Shown here one piece after another: positions 3,965 to 63,719 of a stretch of DNA of 64,000 nt (positions are counted from its first letter, which is position 1; each line of letters begins with the position of its first letter). Origin of the DNA: an uncultured Flavobacteriales bacterium (GTDB lineage: Bacteria > Bacteroidota > Bacteroidia > CAIKAF01); contig CAIKAF010000026.1 of NCBI GenBank assembly GCA_903825395.1, forward strand, positions 18,524-82,523. Direction: 5' to 3'. Below the pieces are notes generated by a model that did not search any database, was not told the DNA's origin, and saw nothing but the letters and a program-made list of their open reading frames with translations. The position numbers and the translations under genes are program-made.

Positions 3965-4714
3965 ATGGCTGAAACCAATACCCATTCCCAAACCCATTTT
4001 ATCGCCTCGCTGGCAGCAGTGATGTGGCAGTACTATTTTGCCGGGCAATTCGCCCTGACCTTGCTGTTGTTTTATCCCTATTTATGGTGGTGTTTTCGTT
4101 CTCCCCGCCGCTACCATCGGGCATTGAATGTACAGCGGTTTTGGTCGGAGTATTTGTTGGACACCGTTGGAATTCGGGTTAAAATAATTGGTGAATTACC
4201 CAGGCCCGAAGAGGGGCCTTATGTGTTTACGCCCAATCACCGGAATTTTCTGGATATTTTGTTGATGTATTTTGTCGCGCGCGGGCCTTTTCATTTTATG
4301 GCCAAGGCCGAGCTGGCGCGGGTGCCGCTGTTTGGCATATTGTTCAGCAAAACACACATACCGTTTAACCGAAGCAGTCCCTCGGAGGCCTCATTGGCAT
4401 TTCGCCGGGGGCTTGGCGAGCTCAAGAACGGCATGAGTTTGGTGGTATTTCCCGAGGCAACGCAAAATCCGCGGGCCGATGGCTTATTGCCCTTTAAAGA
4501 GGGGGCCTTTAAATTGGCAGAAGAGGCCGGAGTTCCGGTGGTGGGCGTCTATTTCGAGAACAATTTGGAGCGGCTTCCCCATTCCCGCGATTTATTCCGC
4601 TGGCCGGGCAGGGGCGGCCCCGGCGAGGTACGGATTCGCATCATGCCCCCGGTTTCAGGCTCGGCAGAATTCACCCGCCAGCATGTGCGCAGCACGATGG
4701 AGGGTTGGTTGTAG
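3965..4714 (+). CDS. plsC: 1-acyl-sn-glycerol-3-phosphate acyltransferase family protein (PlsC-like)
   Basis: Membrane-associated acyltransferase expected to transfer a fatty acyl group to lysophosphatidate in phospholipid synthesis. The 249-residue product has a hydrophobic N-terminal segment (about residues 20-45). The catalytic HX4D motif follows as NHRNFLD, then the acceptor-binding block PFNRSSPSEA and the FPEATQ motif, in the usual order. Specificity for phosphatidate synthesis versus another lysolipid cannot be told from sequence. The stop codon TAG lies inside a GTAG that begins a family C palindrome, so hairpin DNA starts directly at the end of the gene. Confidence 0.88.
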   Translation: MAETNTHSQTHFIASLAAVMWQYYFAGQFALTLLLFYPYLWWCFRSPRRYHRALNVQRFWSEYLLDTVGIRVKIIGELPRPEEGPYVFTPNHRNFLDILLMYFVARGPFHFMAKAELARVPLFGILFSKTHIPFNRSSPSEASLAFRRGLGELKNGMSLVVFPEATQNPRADGLLPFKEGAFKLAEEAGVPVVGVYFENNLERLPHSRDLFRWPGRGGPGEVRIRIMPPVSGSAEFTRQHVRSTMEGWL

Positions 4715-4975
4715 AGCCAAGGCATGCCTTGGCTAAACGATTATGGAATAGCGCCAAGGTATGCCTTGGGTAAGCCAATCCAATCAAATCCAAGGTATAA
4801 CCTTGCCTCAGCCAATCCAATCCAAGGCATGCCAAAGCCAATCCGATCCAAGGCACGTCGTGGCTCTGGCTCTCACATAAATCGTGTTTTTTTGGTCTGA
4901 GCCAAGGCATTTCGTGGTTCTCAAACAAATCCTGTTTTGTTTTTGGTCTGAGCCAAGGCATGCCTTGGCTCTACT
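4714..4975. repeat. Family C palindrome cluster downstream of plsC
   Basis: Perfect palindromes AGCCAAGGCA/TGCCTTGGCT occur at 4715-4734 and, as the 22-nt form, at 4950-4971. Decayed versions lie between (for example CCAAGGTATGCCTTGG and GAGCCAAGGCATTTCGTGG). Two units of about 51 bp sharing GGTCTGAGCCAAGGCAT are tandem at about 4875-4975. The minus-strand ORFs across this area simply translate the repeats. Confidence 0.75.
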
Positions 4976-5004: not shown

Positions 5005-5150
5005 GGCGGCAGCCGGACTTTCCGGGCTACTCCGCGGTCCGAAAACGGGCCGGCAGGAGGCGGGCAGTAGCTCCTAAAGTCGCTCTGCCCACCCGCTGCC
5101 GTCTGCCGTTTCGGCCCTTGCGGGGTAGCCTCGTCAATCCCTGCCGCGGG
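5005..5150 (-). repeat. Family A structured repeat, copy 2
   Basis: In element orientation it begins near 5150 with GCGGCAGGGATTGA and ends near 5005. The second stem GGCTAC/GTAGCC, a third stem around CCGAAAACGG/CCGTTTCGG (one bulge), and the terminal hairpin GGGCAG-A-GC, loop GACTTTAGGA, GC-TA-CTGCCC are visible. It lies between convergent plsC and the 5285-5809 gene. Confidence 0.85.
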
Positions 5151-5157
5151 CGCCGTC

Positions 5158-5259
5158 GGGGCAGACCTACGTGTCTGCCCTTTAGACCTACGTGTCTGCC
5201 CTTTAGACCTACGTGTCTGCCCTTTAGACCTACGTGTCTGCCCTTTAGACCTACGTGTC
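5158..5259. repeat. 21-bp tandem repeat derived from a family B palindrome
   Basis: About 4.6 copies of the 21-bp unit AGACCTACGTGTCTGCCCTTT run from 5163. The left end (GGGGCAGAC, CTACGT, GTCTGCCC) is a family B palindrome, so the array looks like serial duplication of one arm of that hairpin. It abuts family A copy 2. Confidence 0.8.
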
Positions 5260-5284: not shown

Positions 5285-5809
5285 TCAACGCGACGGGGCA
5301 TACACGTAGGTATGCCCCCTCCGACAAAAAACCATCCGCTTAATGGTCTCGGCCTCATAATCACCGGTAATGCTGGCATCAAACCCCGATTCCCTCCAAA
5401 TTTCCATCCAAACCTCCATGCTGTCGGTTTTCCAATACACCTCGTCGGCCAACTCGTTTTTGTAATAGCGGCGCTCCGGAGTCCCCCAGGTTTTTAATGC
5501 CTTTGGATAGGTGTCCCCAAGCCTAAATCCATACACTTGCCCACGAAATCCATACCCGCCTTCAAACCAGCTGCATACCAAACCAATGACCTGTTCTTCT
5601 TTCGGATTTGTATAAAAAATCAAGCCCTTTTGAGCATACAATTTTAAGTTGCCCATGCTTTTCTCCGGAGCACCCAATTCATCCAATACCTGTCCATACA
5701 TGGCTCCTAACACCGGAACATCTGAAGGGCCAACGGCTGCCGACCGCCGCACATGGCATGCGGAAACCCCGAAAAGCAACCCGACCAGCAACAGGCAATG
5801 CCGCCTCAT
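5285..5809 (-). CDS. Predicted lipoprotein of unknown function
   Basis: 174-residue product not assigned to a family. Residues 1-18 form a signal peptide ending in a lipobox (GVSAC), so export and lipidation at Cys18 are likely. The mature part is soluble, rich in Trp and Tyr (YWKTDSMEVWMEIW), with a segment GLVCSWFEGGYGFRGQVYGFRLGD that may be a beta-sheet domain. The start overlaps the stop of the upstream enoyl-CoA hydratase gene by 4 nt (ATGA), implying translational coupling. The last eight or so codons are supplied by a family B palindrome, suggesting that repeat insertion replaced the original C-terminus. Confidence 0.75.
   Translation of the reverse strand: MRRHCLLLVGLLFGVSACHVRRSAAVGPSDVPVLGAMYGQVLDELGAPEKSMGNLKLYAQKGLIFYTNPKEEQVIGLVCSWFEGGYGFRGQVYGFRLGDTYPKALKTWGTPERRYYKNELADEVYWKTDSMEVWMEIWRESGFDASITGDYEAETIKRMVFCRRGHTYVYAPSR
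5295..5318. repeat. Family B 24-nt palindrome overlapping a gene end
   Basis: GGGGCATAC, loop ACGTAG, GTATGCCCC: a perfect 9-bp stem with a 6-base loop. It lies inside the last codons of the minus-strand lipoprotein gene, whose C-terminus HTYVYAPSR is encoded by it. Confidence 0.8.
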
Positions 5810-9956: not shown

Positions 9957-10104
9957 GGGGCGGCAGCCGGGCTTTCAGGGGGAGTCCGCGGTTGTCGGGG
10001 CGCTGTCCAGCGGGCTTGCGGTGGCTCCTAAAGTCGCCTCCGCGCCACGCGGTCAGCAGCCCCGACACCCTTGCGGGCTCCCTCTTCAATCCCTGCCGCA
10101 GGCG
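9957..10104 (-). repeat. Family A structured repeat, copy 3
   Basis: Third stem TGTCGGGG/CCCCGACA and second stem GGGAG/CTCCC differ from other copies but pair. The terminal loop GACTTTAGGA and core GGAGCCACCGCAAGCCCGC are intact. It lies between the prfB start and the RAYT gene, about 150 bp upstream of the latter. Confidence 0.88.
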
Positions 10105-10256
10105 CCTCTTGACCTGGATTCTCTCAATATCCATTTGCAACCCCCTCCATGCTTCCCACCTCTAAATTACCCCAATACCGTTGAAATTGTTCCACAACTC
10201 AGGGTTGATAAATTGAAAATTTGGGCCTAAATTCCAGCAAATAAATCATCTGAATC

Positions 10257-10889
10257 ATGAGTCCAAAATCCCAATACAATCCCCACAAACGTCGCCGCAA
10301 TTCCCTTCGGTTAAAAGGGTATGATTATTCACAACCGGGTTTTTATTTTGTTACCATTTGTTGCCAAGACCGAATGCCATGTTTCGGCTACATCATCCAC
10401 GGTAAAATGCATTTGAGCGATGCCGGCAAAATGATTGAAAAATGGTATTATGAATTGGAAAATAAATTTCCCCACATAAAATGCCACGCCATGGTCGTCA
10501 TGCCCGACCATTTTCATTGCGTGATTGAAATCACCCCGCAGGGGCAGACCTCCGTGTCTGCCCCTGTCCCCCCAACCGCCACCCGTGCCGAAACCGCCAC
10601 CCGTGCCGAAACCGCCACCAAGGGCGAAAACGCCACCAGGGGCGAACACAGAGGTTCGCCCCTTTGGGCCACCATACAATGGTTCAAAACCATGACCACG
10701 AACGAATACATACGGGGCGTGAAAAATTTGAATTGGATGCCGTTTAATAAAAAATTATGGCAACGAAGTTACCACGACATTATCGTGCCAGATGACCGCG
10801 CCTTTCAAACCATTTCAAGATATATTCATCAAAATCCGGTTCAATGGAAGGGGGTTGCCCCACCACAAGAAGAAAAAAAGGACCTTTAA
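10257..10889 (+). CDS. REP-associated tyrosine transposase (RAYT, IS200/IS605-like Y1 family)
   Basis: Single-strand DNA transposase-like protein of 210 residues. The HUH metal-binding motif appears as MPDHFHCVIEI near residue 83-90 and the family N-terminal block as GYDYSQPGFYFVTICCQDR. The likely catalytic tyrosine lies in SRYIHQNPVQW near the C-terminus. RAYTs are usually single-copy domesticated genes that mobilise short palindromic REP sequences. Between the HUH motif and the following helix (TIQWFKTMTTNEYIRG) is a low-complexity insert of about 40 residues (PTATRAETATRAETATKG) bounded on both sides by in-frame family B palindromes. No flanking terminal repeats or target duplications are evident, so the gene is probably not itself a complete insertion sequence. 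Confidence 0.88.
   Translation: MSPKSQYNPHKRRRNSLRLKGYDYSQPGFYFVTICCQDRMPCFGYIIHGKMHLSDAGKMIEKWYYELENKFPHIKCHAMVVMPDHFHCVIEITPQGQTSVSAPVPPTATRAETATRAETATKGENATRGEHRGSPLWATIQWFKTMTTNEYIRGVKNLNWMPFNKKLWQRSYHDIIVPDDRAFQTISRYIHQNPVQWKGVAPPQEEKKDL
10541..10564. repeat. Family B palindrome inside the RAYT gene, left copy
   Basis: GGGGCAGAC, loop CTCCGT, GTCTGCCCC: perfect 9-bp stem, translated as QGQTSVSAP within the transposase. Confidence 0.85.
10639..10662. repeat. Family B palindrome inside the RAYT gene, right copy
   Basis: GGGGCGAAC, loop ACAGAG, GTTCGCCCC: perfect 9-bp stem. Stem positions 6-8 differ from the left copy but pairing is kept. An 18-bp tandem unit (GAAACCGCCACCCGTGCC) lies between the two palindromes. 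Confidence 0.85.
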
Positions 10890-19749: not shown

Positions 19750-19895
19750 TTGCGGCAGGGATTGAACGGATTGCCCGCAAGGTTGCCGACGGCTGGCGCC
19801 GCGCGGCGAGGAGGCGACGTCAGGAGCCACCACAGCCCGCATGGCGCCCCGTTCGGCAACCGCGGACAAGCAGTGAAAGCCCGGCAGCCGCCCCC
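19750..19895 (+). repeat. Family A structured repeat, copy 4
   Basis: Third stem GGTTGCCGA/TCGGCAACC is perfect. The outer parts GCGGCAGGG and CCCGGCAGCCGC, and the loop GACGTCAGGA, are present. It lies between the 3' ends of the convergent PseG-like and TonB-receptor genes and stops 24 nt from the latter. Confidence 0.87.
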
Positions 19896-22936: not shown

Positions 22937-23084
22937 GGGCGGCTGCGGGCTTTCAGCGCTTGTCCGCGGTTGCCGAAAGGCTGCCCCAGCGGGCTTGCGG
23001 TGGCTCCTAAAGTCGCCTCCGCGCCGCGCGGGGCAGGCTTCGGCACCCTTTCGGGCAAGCTGCTTCAATCCCTGCCGCAGGCCC
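22937..23084 (-). repeat. Family A structured repeat, copy 5
   Basis: Third stem has two blocks, TGCCGAA/TTCGGCA and CTGCCCC/GGGGCAG. The core GACTTTAGGAGCCACCGCAAG is intact. It fills the gap between the 3' ends of the convergent dcd and NusG-paralogue genes, with 7-8 nt on each side. Confidence 0.88.
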
Positions 23085-33359: not shown

Positions 33360-33480
33360 CTTGGGGCATGGGGGGAAGGGCATGGGGCATCGGGCATCGG
33401 GCATCGGGCAAACACGTAGGTTTGCCCCGGCCTCTCGACCGGCCTGGATGGCATGGGGCAAATAGCCCCGGCGTCTTGAA
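33360..33480. repeat. Repeat block with family B palindrome
   Basis: GGGCAAAC, loop ACGTAG, GTTTGCCC at 33406-33427 is the family B palindrome. Around it are short direct repeats of CGGGCAT and a CCGGCCT...GGCCTGGATGGC segment that recurs at 34.4-34.5 kb. Confidence 0.7.
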
Positions 33481-34351: not shown

Positions 34352-34530
34352 GGAGCATACCTGTGTGTATGCTCCTGTCCAAGTGTATGCTCTTTGGCGT
34401 CGAATGGGGCAAACCTTCGTGTTTGCCCCGGCGTCTTGAAAGGCCTGGATGGCTTGGGGGCAAACACGAAGGTTTGCCCCAGCGTCTTGAAAGGCCTGGA
34501 TGGCTTGGGGCAAACACGAAGGTTTGCCTC
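34352..34530. repeat. Cluster of four family B palindromes
   Basis: GGAGCATAC/GTATGCTCC at 34352, GGGGCAAAC/GTTTGCCCC at 34406 and 34457, and a version with one mismatch at 34507. All have 9-bp stems and 6-base loops (CTGTGT, CTTCGT, ACGAAG). The last two lie in a tandem unit of about 50 bp with CGTCTTGAAAGGCCTGGATG. Confidence 0.85.
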
Positions 34531-36208: not shown

Positions 36209-36354
36209 GGGCGGCTGCGGGCTTTCAGCGGTAGTCCGCGGCCGGAAACACCGGGCCCAGCGGCTTTGCGTGGGCTCCCAAGGTCGCCTCCGCAGCACGC
36301 GGGCCCCGTGTTTCCGGCCTTGCGGGCAACCGGCTTCAATCCCTGCCGCAGCCA
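36209..36354 (-). repeat. Family A structured repeat, copy 6
   Basis: Best-preserved stem of the set: GGCCGGAAACAC/GTGTTTCCGGCC, 12 bp perfect. The outer stem is GGCTGCGG/CCGCAGCC, and the loop is GACCTTGGGA. It lies upstream of lnt. Confidence 0.9.
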
Positions 36355-36390: not shown

Positions 36391-36538
36391 GCCGGCGGGC
36401 GGGATTGAACAAGGTTGCCCGCAAAGACGGTTGGGTTGCTGCCCATGCGCTGCGCAGGCGACCTTGGGAGCCCGCGTAAAGCCATTGGGCAGCCCCAACC
36501 GGCTGCGGACTACCTGTGAAAGCCCGATAACCCGCCCA
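36391..36538 (+). repeat. Family A structured repeat, copy 7
   Basis: Outer stem GGGCGGG/CCCGCCC instead of the usual GCGGC/GCCGC, a compensated change. The third stem is GGTTGGG/CCCAACC and GCTGCCCA/TGGGCAGC. It is opposite in orientation to copy 6 and 36 bp from it, forming an inverted pair between divergent lnt and the carboxylase gene. Confidence 0.9.
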
Positions 36539-41733: not shown

Positions 41734-43036
41734 GGCCTTTATTCTTACCTATGGAATGCCCGAACCGCCAAGTCGAATTCTGGCCATGGTGAGTGGAGGG
41801 GCAGATTCAATGGTTTTACTCCATTTGCTTCAACAGGCAGGATATTCTGTCCAGGTGTTGCATGTTAATTATGGATTAAGGGGGAACGAATCCGACATGG
41901 ATCAACAGCTGTTGGAATCGTATTGTCAGCGTCAGGGTTTGGAATGCAAGGTAATTCGGTGTAGTCCAGGCCAACTCACAGGAAACATTCAAACGGCCGC
42001 CAGAGAATTGAGGTATCGGGAAGCTGAAGCTTGGATGAACGAGGCTGGATTTGACGCCATAGCCACCGGGCACCAATTGGACGATGCCTTAGAAACCTGT
42101 TGGCTCAATTTGATTCGTGGAACAGGCATTGAAGGCTTGAAGGGGATTGCTCCCTATTCCGGACGAAAAATGCGCCCTTTGCTGTGGGCCACCGCCGATG
42201 AGGTGCGTGCCTTTGCTAAAAGCCAAGGCATTCCATGGCGGGAAGACCAAAGCAACAGCAGCGATGCCTATCGGCGTAATGTACTGAGAAATCAAATCCT
42301 GCCCCAGCTTAAGACCTGGAATCCTAAATGGGCAGAGGGATTTGCTCAGACCTTGGATAAATTGCAAACCACAGCGGAACTGCAACGGGTGCACATCAAC
42401 CGGATTCGACAGCAGTTGCTGCACGAAGACGACAGCACCGGCCACCTGAAAATTTCGGTCTTGGAATTGGCCGGGTCCGGCATCAATGAAACCACCATGG
42501 GCTGGTTGCTGATGCCCTTGGGCTTTTCTGAGGCCCAAGGGCGCCGTGTTTTTTCTTTGCCGCAAGGAGAAAACGGAAAAAAAATAATCGGAGAAACCCA
42601 TACGGCCAGCCTACAAATGCCCTTTATTTTCATTACTGAAAATGTGGAAGAGCCCAATTGGGAATGGAAAGGCAGTGTGCAGGAATTGCTGGAAGGTGCA
42701 GTGCATGGAATCGCTGCTGAGGTTCGGAATGCAGCTGAATTGAGTCCAGACCCGAATCGGTGTTCGGTGGGAATTCGTTCCTTGAATGACCAAGTATGCA
42801 TTCGACCTTGGAAAGCGGGCGACCGCATTTATTTTGGCAGGGGCCATAAAAATGTGAGCGATGTCATCAATGAAGCCTCGGTGTTGAATCCATTGAAGTC
42901 AATGGTTTATGTGGTTGAAATGGAGGGAGATGTGGTTTGGGTGCAGGGAATTCGAAAGGCTCCTTTGCGGCAGGACGAGGGAGAAATGTACTTGGATTTG
43001 CATTGGAATGTACACCCCCACCATTCCGATATTTAA
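41717..43036 (+). CDS. tilS: tRNA(Ile)-lysidine synthase
   Basis: Modifies C34 of tRNA-Ile(CAU) to lysidine so that AUA is read as isoleucine. 439 residues: the N-type ATP pyrophosphatase motif SGGADSMVLLH near residues 27-37, HVNYGLRGNESDMD, and ATGHQLDDALET, then a C-terminal domain with WKAGDRIYFGRGHKNVSDVIN. The start overlaps pabB by 17 nt. Essential in most bacteria. Confidence 0.96.
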   Translation: MLDRFKAFILTYGMPEPPSRILAMVSGGADSMVLLHLLQQAGYSVQVLHVNYGLRGNESDMDQQLLESYCQRQGLECKVIRCSPGQLTGNIQTAARELRYREAEAWMNEAGFDAIATGHQLDDALETCWLNLIRGTGIEGLKGIAPYSGRKMRPLLWATADEVRAFAKSQGIPWREDQSNSSDAYRRNVLRNQILPQLKTWNPKWAEGFAQTLDKLQTTAELQRVHINRIRQQLLHEDDSTGHLKISVLELAGSGINETTMGWLLMPLGFSEAQGRRVFSLPQGENGKKIIGETHTASLQMPFIFITENVEEPNWEWKGSVQELLEGAVHGIAAEVRNAAELSPDPNRCSVGIRSLNDQVCIRPWKAGDRIYFGRGHKNVSDVINEASVLNPLKSMVYVVEMEGDVVWVQGIRKAPLRQDEGEMYLDLHWNVHPHHSDI

Positions 43037-49872: not shown

Positions 49873-50021
49873 ATGCGGCAGGGATTGAACTAGGTAGGCT
49901 GTAGGTGTGCCGGCGGCAGCTGCCGCGCGGCGAGGAGGCGACGTGAGGAGCCACCGCAGCCCGCCTGGCAGCCCGTCCGGCCGCCTGCAGGCTACCTGTG
50001 AAAGCCCGTAGTCCGCCCCCC
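49873..50021 (+). repeat. Family A structured repeat, copy 8
   Basis: Second stem AGGTAG.CTG/CAG.CTACCT, third stem GCCGG..GCTGCC/GGCAGC..CCGGC, loop GACGTGAGGA. It ends 12 nt before the stop codon of the next (convergent) gene. Confidence 0.87.
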
Positions 50022-54247: not shown

Positions 54248-54391
54248 GGGCGGCAGCCGGGCTTTCTGGGCTAGTCCGCGCCGGCAGGTGGCGGGGCCAG
54301 CGGGTTTACGGTGGCTCCCAAGGTCGCCTCCGCACCACGCGGCCCCGGCACCTGCCGTCTTGCGGGCAAGCCCTATCAATCCCTGCCGCCA
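54248..54391 (-). repeat. Family A structured repeat, copy 9
   Basis: Third stem CGGCAGGTG/CACCTGCCG and GGGGCC/GGCCCC. The loop reads GACCTTGGGA in element orientation. It begins 30 nt after the DUF2147-like stop, between convergent genes. Confidence 0.87.
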
Positions 54392-59397: not shown

Positions 59398-59543
59398 TGC
59401 GGGCGGGATTGAAGGAGTTAGCACGCAAGGATGGCAGAGCCGGGCACGCGCGGCGCGGAGGCGACTTTAGGAGCCCCCGCAAGCCCGCTGAGCCCGACTT
59501 CTGCCAGCCGCGGACTAACCCTGAAAGCCCGATTACCCGCCCC
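59398..59543 (+). repeat. Family A structured repeat, copy 10
   Basis: Outer stem GGGCGGG/CCCGCCC as in copy 7, second stem GTTAG/CTAAC, third stem TGGCAGA..GGGC/GCCC..TCTGCCA, loop GACTTTAGGA. It lies between the terminator above and the DUF349 gene promoter. Confidence 0.88.
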
Positions 59544-61510: not shown

Positions 61511-62046
61511 GCGCTTGGTTCATTTTCTCGGGGTTATTCAACCTCTACCTTCTGCCGTTTTTAATAGCATAAGATAGGTAGATTTGATGGTGCTATAGGA
61601 AATTTCAACCTTGGACTTGAAACTTAAAAAATCCTTCCGTAAATTTGAAGTATTCATCGATGAAGCGTTGTTTTTGGCTTCGTCACGTACTTGGGGTGGC
61701 GAAGGACAGTTAGGGTTCTTTTTGATGTGAACTAAGGGAATTGGGGAAGGCTGTAAAGTTGAACCCGGTTCGCCATGGGGGTCTCAGAAAAGCCTTCTAT
61801 ATCAACCTTGTTGATTTGGAGGGCGGGAGCTTGGGAATGAGACGGGTGAAACTGGTAGATTCACCTTTTTCGGAAAGGGATTTGGAAGTAAGGTTTTCAG
61901 GTTACCTGGATAGGGTAGTAGTGCAGTCGGTTCAGCTTTTTTGGGTTGGATGCGGCGGATTAGGTATTGGAGGTGTGTCATCTTTTGGGGCCCAGAAAAA
62001 AGGGTACCCTTGAAATAAGCCCCCCGAAATGAAATCGGCCCAAAGC
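61511..62046. other. Intergenic 536 bp without a supportable gene
   Basis: The ORF at 61741-62013 begins at TTG, has no recognisable product and no promoter box. Its text (LNPVRHGG...LVDLEGGSLGMRRVKL) could be a decayed fragment of a sorting-domain-like sequence. No repeat of families A-E was found here. Confidence 0.4.
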
Positions 62047-63604: not shown

Positions 63605-63719
63605 AGTAGAACGTATTGGAGCTCAGGACACCAGAACCCCGTAGGGGTGGCATTATAGTAGAACGTATTTGAGCTCAGGACATCAGAACCCCGTGGGGGT
63701 GAAATTATTGTAGAACGTT
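63605..63719. repeat. Family E 52-bp tandem repeat, first block
   Basis: Units start at 63605, 63657 and 63709 (period 52) with GTAGAACGTATTGGAGCTCAGGACA followed by CCAGAACCCCGTAGGGGTGG. The CCCCGTAGGGG part is a small palindrome. Confidence 0.8.

Follow-up and report, generated by a model that had tools for sequence, protein, structure and literature searches.

An in-frame inverted pair of putative cognate REPs in a RAYT transposase gene from a Flavobacteriales lineage that has lost the GTAG foot

We analysed a stretch of 64,000 nucleotides from an uncultured Flavobacteriales bacterium (the window; its genome is referred to as G000) and observed that a RAYT gene at 10257–10889 on the plus strand carries, in its own reading frame, an inverted pair of short palindromic REPs (family B) that are probably its cognate repeats. 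In this lineage, the GTAG foot has disappeared from the REPs, and two of the residues equivalent to those that read it are changed in the enzyme. This pairing of GTAG loss with altered GTAG-reading residues is the novel part, not already known to the specialist. We consider it probable that the gene encodes a subclass-2.4-like RAYT with family B as its cognate REP, that the REPtron is decaying, and that the neighbouring hairpin, family A, is unrelated to the enzyme. RAYTs are thought to spread REPs but, to our knowledge, it has been worked out in only a few enzymes which of their features read which features of the REP. The RAYT clade described here has retained one REP type in several bacterial phyla, and one lineage within it has lost both GTAG and two reading-site residues. 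This lineage lends itself to testing the GTAG-recognition model in nature, and its GTAG-retaining relatives can serve as controls.

The 210-aa product was assigned to the Y1 HUH transposases of the RAYT/TnpA_REP kind from its Pfam match, the alignment of its HUH and tyrosine motifs and a fold match of its AlphaFold model, and by analogy is predicted to cut and rejoin single-stranded DNA. Pfam Y1_Tnp (PF01797) scored 35.4 bits, above its cut-off of 23. The top NCBIfam family was NF047646 (REP_Tyr_transpos) with 68 bits, under its cut-off of 80; this profile has no space for the REP-encoded linker of the window protein. The HUH motif MPDHFHCVIEI, pointed out in an earlier note on this DNA, is indeed present at residues 82–92 (10500–10532, plus strand), and the catalytic tyrosine, Y189, lies in YIHQNP (10821–10838, plus strand), which includes the NP. 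H85 and H87 of the HUH motif and Y189 are invariant in an alignment of 34 sequences. The AlphaFold model, built from 34 aligned sequences, has a mean pLDDT of 78.9 and was matched by Foldseek to IS608, ISDra2 and E. coli TnpA_REP (PDB 4er8) with E of about 1e-5. A profile search of the PDB returned 4er8 as its sole match (2e-7), and a single-sequence search of the PDB gave spurious matches only.

Both in-gene palindromes, also claimed in the earlier note, are exact over 24 nt and lie in frame, in the stretch that separates the HUH strand from the catalytic-tyrosine helix. REP 1 (10541–10564, plus strand; GGGGCAGAC-CTCCGT-GTCTGCCCC) has the loop CTCCGT and the foot GCAG, and REP 2 (10639–10662, minus strand; GGGGCGAAC-ACAGAG-GTTCGCCCC) has, on its own strand, the loop CTCTGT and the foot AAAG. 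Their loops are not palindromic and so give them a direction: the two are opposed, in a REPIN-like manner. From the sequence and the model, the pair as a whole (10541–10662) encodes most of a low-confidence linker at residues about 96–136. In the model, the residues that follow the HUH strand (85–92) and precede the next helix (135–158) are mostly disordered, with pLDDT below 50 at residues 97–101 and 109–128. The amino acids encoded by the pair thus form a disordered segment that joins the HUH strand to the tyrosine half of the enzyme, and the active site need not be disturbed by it. The spacer between the REPs is an 18-nt tandem repeat (encoding ATRAET), whose repeat number differs between G000 and a second genome, G007; the G007 orthologue keeps both palindromes and has 36 nt fewer of the repeat between them. 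REP 2 falls inside the part encoding GEHRGSPL, which is conserved in the nearest relatives. Three of these (L120, L121 and L123) have the same in-gene inverted pair in the same order, with a REP 2 frame identical to that of the window (GEHxGSPL), whereas the phase of REP 1 differs (QGQTSVSAP in the window and VGADLRVCP in the three relatives).

Of 72 relatives taken from genome assemblies, 41 carry a palindrome of 9 bp or longer in frame between their HUH and Y motifs. In the same taxonomic family, 15 RAYT-like ORFs were examined (own genome included), and 12 of them have such a palindrome, of several types. This arrangement is already known, since in-frame REPs at the HUH–Y site are the published hallmark of TnpAY1 subclass 2.4, or group 4 of Bertels (Quentin et al. 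2018, PMC6006769). The window protein resembles this subclass as a Y1 HUH enzyme with Y---NP and a WQ motif, and in its variable insertion between HUH and Y that holds in-frame putative cognate REPs; the REP stem is likewise based on G–C pairs, and Bacteroidota are among the hosts. It differs in having DHFH and YIHQNP in place of NH[IFV]H and YIxNNP, in REPs that lack GT[AG]G, and in having no REP copies that flank the gene. The nearest relatives (L120–L123) have NHFH or NHIH and mostly YIxNNP. TnpAY1 subclass 2.6 of Bacteroidetes also comes close, with its YIH[QN]NP motif and its atypical REP structures without GT[AG]G. However, the nearest tree relatives of the window protein carry GTAG REPs and mostly YIxNNP, and the subclass 2.6 insertion sits at alphaC:beta4, whereas in the window protein the insertion separates the HUH strand from the helix that follows. 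The protein groups with the in-gene-REP relatives (98*) in our own tree, computed without the reference sequences of Quentin et al., and on that tree we treat it as probably subclass 2.4-like.

The description of family B given in the earlier note proved accurate. Its members have a 9-bp stem with G–C pairs at the foot and a 6-nt CTNNGT loop, conserved among the copies as CTACGT, CTCCGT or CTTCGT, and the stem variants are compensated (CAG/CTG, CAT/ATG, CAA/TTG and CGA/TCG, with CAC/GTG elsewhere in the genome). Copies were also recovered at each of the other places in the window that had been named: at 5158–5181 (plus), the first of a 21-nt tandem array that runs to about 5260; at 5295–5318 (minus); at 33405–33428 (minus); at 34352–34375 (plus), a variant with GGAGC that was picked up by a looser scan and is the sole copy with an exact GTAG foot; and in a 51-nt array at 34406–34429 (plus), 34457–34480 (minus) and 34507–34530 (minus, one mismatch). 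Counts over the 2.63-Mb genome, drawn from pattern searches and sampled stretches, put the strict pattern at 20 places, whereas the reversed control gave 0, so that chance is not the explanation. The family is of low copy number, and patchy, with 7 of the 20 strict places within the window. Many copies stand in local arrays, tandemly repeated in units of 21–51 nt, which are duplications in place and not transposition; several lone copies lie outside arrays. Several copies in G007 have the same flanks as G000 copies. The present copies were probably inherited or spread through local tandem duplication.

In a classical REPtron, REP copies flank the gene. Here no palindrome of at least 9 bp was found outside the ORF within 1 kb of the RAYT gene, and the absence of any flanking family B copy in this range speaks against a REPtron of the classical form. 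Like the GTAG REP families (Di Nocera et al. 2013, PMC3733652), family B has a short perfect stem with alternative complementary residues, and forms head-to-head dimers and clusters; it differs from them in its copy number of about 20–40 and in the absence of the GTAG foot from 23 of 23 strict copies. Compared with the E. coli REPs, it has a perfect stem, a 6-nt loop, no bulge, and copies inside the gene.

We next consider the link between the enzyme and family B. The RAYT clade that holds the window protein (SH-aLRT 93, outer 99) spans several bacterial phyla. Of the 12 other rows of the clade, 9 have a B-type REP in their loci, compared with 0 of 64 rows outside it. Among 16 genomes of the GTDB family, strict family B copies were present in G000 (20 places) and G007 (10), with 0–1 in each of the other 14, and these two are the only genomes that have this RAYT orthologue (95% identical). 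The association within one clade across phyla, the presence within the family only alongside the orthologue, and the in-gene pair together argue that family B is, as judged from these comparisons, the cognate REP of this RAYT. The earlier note had named the RAYT as the natural candidate for mobilising family B. The link itself is upheld, as the survey of genomes with and without this RAYT that it had proposed shows family B to track the orthologue; the role of mobiliser fares less well, as the loss of GTAG argues that mobilisation may have stopped.

In 11 genomes holding clade relatives, GTAG precedes 164 of 195 oriented B-type REPs; the relatives were selected for a RAYT of this clade, and several are fragmented MAGs. 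An exact GTAG foot was found at 0 of 16 strict copies in G000 and 0 of 7 in G007 (Fisher 1.5e-16 against the relatives), in a comparison whose copies are not fully independent, some being in tandem arrays and some orthologous. The feet present instead are GTCG, GTTG, CTAG, GCAG, GCCG, ATAG, AAAG and others, with no new consensus, and from their sequences they look like drift away from GTAG. G000 and G007 copies have feet in common, so the loss predates the split of the two. As stems had to be paired in the REP searches, the persistence of stems and of feet is not comparable from these counts.

The enzyme is altered on the corresponding side. W94, Q95, E100, H101 and R104 are found at the GTAG-reading site of E. 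coli TnpA_REP (PMC6006769, PMC8266576). A profile alignment to 4er8 sets these against W168, Q169, D174, I175 and P178, within the segment WQRSYHDIIVP (residues 168–178; 10758–10790, plus strand). The window protein is thus like the E. coli enzyme in fold, HUH, Y and the equivalents of W94 and Q95, and the change from E100 to D174 is conservative; it differs by H101 to I175 and by R104 to P178. Among 70 relatives, the R104 position holds R in 65, and the H101 position holds H or R, also in 65. Membership in the superfamily is possible without these residues; they are needed for the reading of GTAG.

From these data, the following course of events may be proposed. The enzyme would be a single-stranded DNA endonuclease and transposase of the HUH type, from a lineage that carries its own REPs in frame. 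In relatives that still work, the enzyme would bind the REP as a single-stranded hairpin and read the GTAG at its 5' side, then cut with the tyrosine and join the REP elsewhere, steps that are inferred from the biochemistry of the E. coli, Stenotrophomonas and Marinomonas enzymes. In the window lineage, the REPs have lost the guide and the enzyme its equivalents of H101 and R104, and with both losses the REPtron is most likely decaying. The dN/dS of the RAYT between G000 and G007 is 0.55, compared with 0.06 in the neighbouring prfB, which fits decay. Decay is nonetheless a probable reading and not a certain one, as the reading frame is intact in two species and HUH and Y are kept, and as this ratio comes from just 13 substitutions.

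The RAYT and its REPs may instead have dropped the GTAG guide jointly, so that an active REPtron has been re-specified and the hairpin is read by its stem and CTNNGT loop alone. If true, this would be a natural guide-free REP transposase inside a clade that otherwise reads GTAG. The intact HUH, Y, W168 and Q169, the conserved loops and the several lone copies outside arrays are consistent with this possibility. Some TnpA_REP enzymes bind despite GTAG mutations, certain loop positions being essential (PMC8266576), and GTAG changes are tolerated by some group 3 enzymes. However, the feet have settled on no new consensus and resemble drift, the copy number is low, and most G007 copies have flanks in common with G000 copies. 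We therefore regard re-specification as possible but rather unlikely, and decay as the preferred reading.

Less likely still, family B may be kept for an RNA-level function of the host, at terminators or mRNA ends, its link to the RAYT being historical. The paired stems with compensated changes, and hairpins that remain while their feet are lost, would fit such a role. The copies, however, are few, many of them are in tandem arrays, two lie inside a coding frame, and their presence tracks the RAYT orthologue exactly among the 16 genomes, which makes this explanation improbable.

Family A copy 3 (A3; 9959–10099, plus strand; 145.7 bits with the model R1 described below) ends 157 nt before the RAYT gene, in agreement with the roughly 150 bp reported earlier, and the interval 9957–10889 comprises A3 and the gene. 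The other window copies are at 1747–1889, 5005–5147, 19752–19892, 22938–23078, 36210–36349, 36395–36535, 49875–50017, 54249–54389 and 59399–59540. A model built from these 10 copies (R1) describes one long imperfect hairpin of 142 positions, in which 27 of 48 pairs are changed on both sides; 0 of 500 shuffles reached the observed scores. An Rfam scan of the window gave nothing above any family's gathering score. The copies are intergenic, about one per 7.5 kb, and 39 copies placed in about 300 kb of G000 are nearly all intergenic as well. R1 found at least 150 copies each in G000, G005 and G009, 146 in G007, and 24–26 in G006 and G008. All six genomes of the genus therefore have family A, which was found in none of the ten other genomes of the GTDB family.

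It had been suggested that the RAYT might also mobilise family A. That A is one long covarying hairpin, as Y1 substrates are, speaks for this suggestion, as does the gcvH locus, where family A and a RAYT are inverted as one unit between G005 (L204) and G009 (L206), the G005 RAYT being a remnant. Four separate RAYT loci from A-rich genomes are preceded, on the same strand, by family A or a fragment of it; against a 26% background per strand, this gives a post hoc p of about 0.004, and of about 0.05 for the three of four loci with a full-length copy, which is suggestive at best. However, where 250 nt or more separate a gene from its upstream neighbour (47 genes), family A lies upstream within 500 nt on the same strand in 12 and on the other strand in 12. 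As about half of such long-gap genes have family A, its position beside the RAYT is expected. G005 has no Y1_Tnp match and only a 61-residue RAYT remnant, yet at least 150 family A copies, and G012 and G013 have RAYTs and 0 copies; family A thus does not follow RAYTs. G009 has A3 at the corresponding site but is without this RAYT orthologue, and family A has no GTAG foot and is five times the length of a REP. We therefore judge mobilisation of family A by this RAYT, or by RAYTs generally, very unlikely, contrary to the earlier suggestion, which the abundance of family A in G005 in the proposed survey also fails to bear out. Family A is a separate, genus-specific intergenic hairpin without REP features, A3 is not part of the RAYT system, and the family drops off the list of plausible RAYT substrates.

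Family A copies at unrelated loci of different species can be as much as 90–95% identical, and orthologous genes are at 70–80%. Gene segments bounded by family A at 19.9–22.9 kb and 36.5–38.2 kb of the window are inverted between G000 and G005/G009 (L221, L223), and inverted A copies stand at both ends of the 19.9–22.9 kb segment, as if family A took part in inversions. In a comparison of filled and empty A sites between G000 and G005/G009, exact junctions were unreadable, the intergenic DNA being too diverged. Another dispersed repeat of about 270 nt lies at about 61616–61888 of the window; searches of G000, G007 and G005 gave over 20 matches to it.

The 18-nt spacer repeat, with its different numbers in G000 and G007, might suggest that the palindromes in the gene are a side effect of a repetitive coding sequence. 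We regard this as next to impossible: it is refuted by a palindrome density of 1.35 per kb in RAYT ORFs, 19-fold above the 0.069 per kb of the remaining ORFs at these loci, besides the dispersal of the same REP type outside genes and the conservation of REP 2 as GEHxGSPL in relatives.

Other palindromes were observed in and around RAYT and Y1 genes. In a 330-aa RAYT of G009 (L021, contig C47), the HUH–Y insertion has grown to some 170 residues, made up of repeats and bounded on both sides by REP-like palindromes. The second RAYT of G000 (L002/L208, contig C5) carries its own double-foot REP (GTAGAGACGCAC..GTGCGTCTCTAC) in the gene, upstream of the HUH motif, with several more copies around the gene. 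The family of GTAGAGACGCAC (family C) was considered as an internal GTAG control; with just five copies in the sampled DNA, it was too small. A further palindromic family around AGAGCCAAGGCATGCCTTGGCTCT, double-foot and REP-like, is found in the window at 1964–1991, 4706–4733, 4891–4918, 4942–4969 and 42212–42239. Among Y1 genes with a YxxNQ motif (subclass 1.2-like; subclass 1.2 is published as being without REPs), 5 of about 15 have a CCCCTACGGGG palindrome nearby, mostly in arrays; the sites are L001 (G000, contig C28), L071, L072, L079 and L080, and the palindrome also occurs in the window at 63637, 63808 and 63858.
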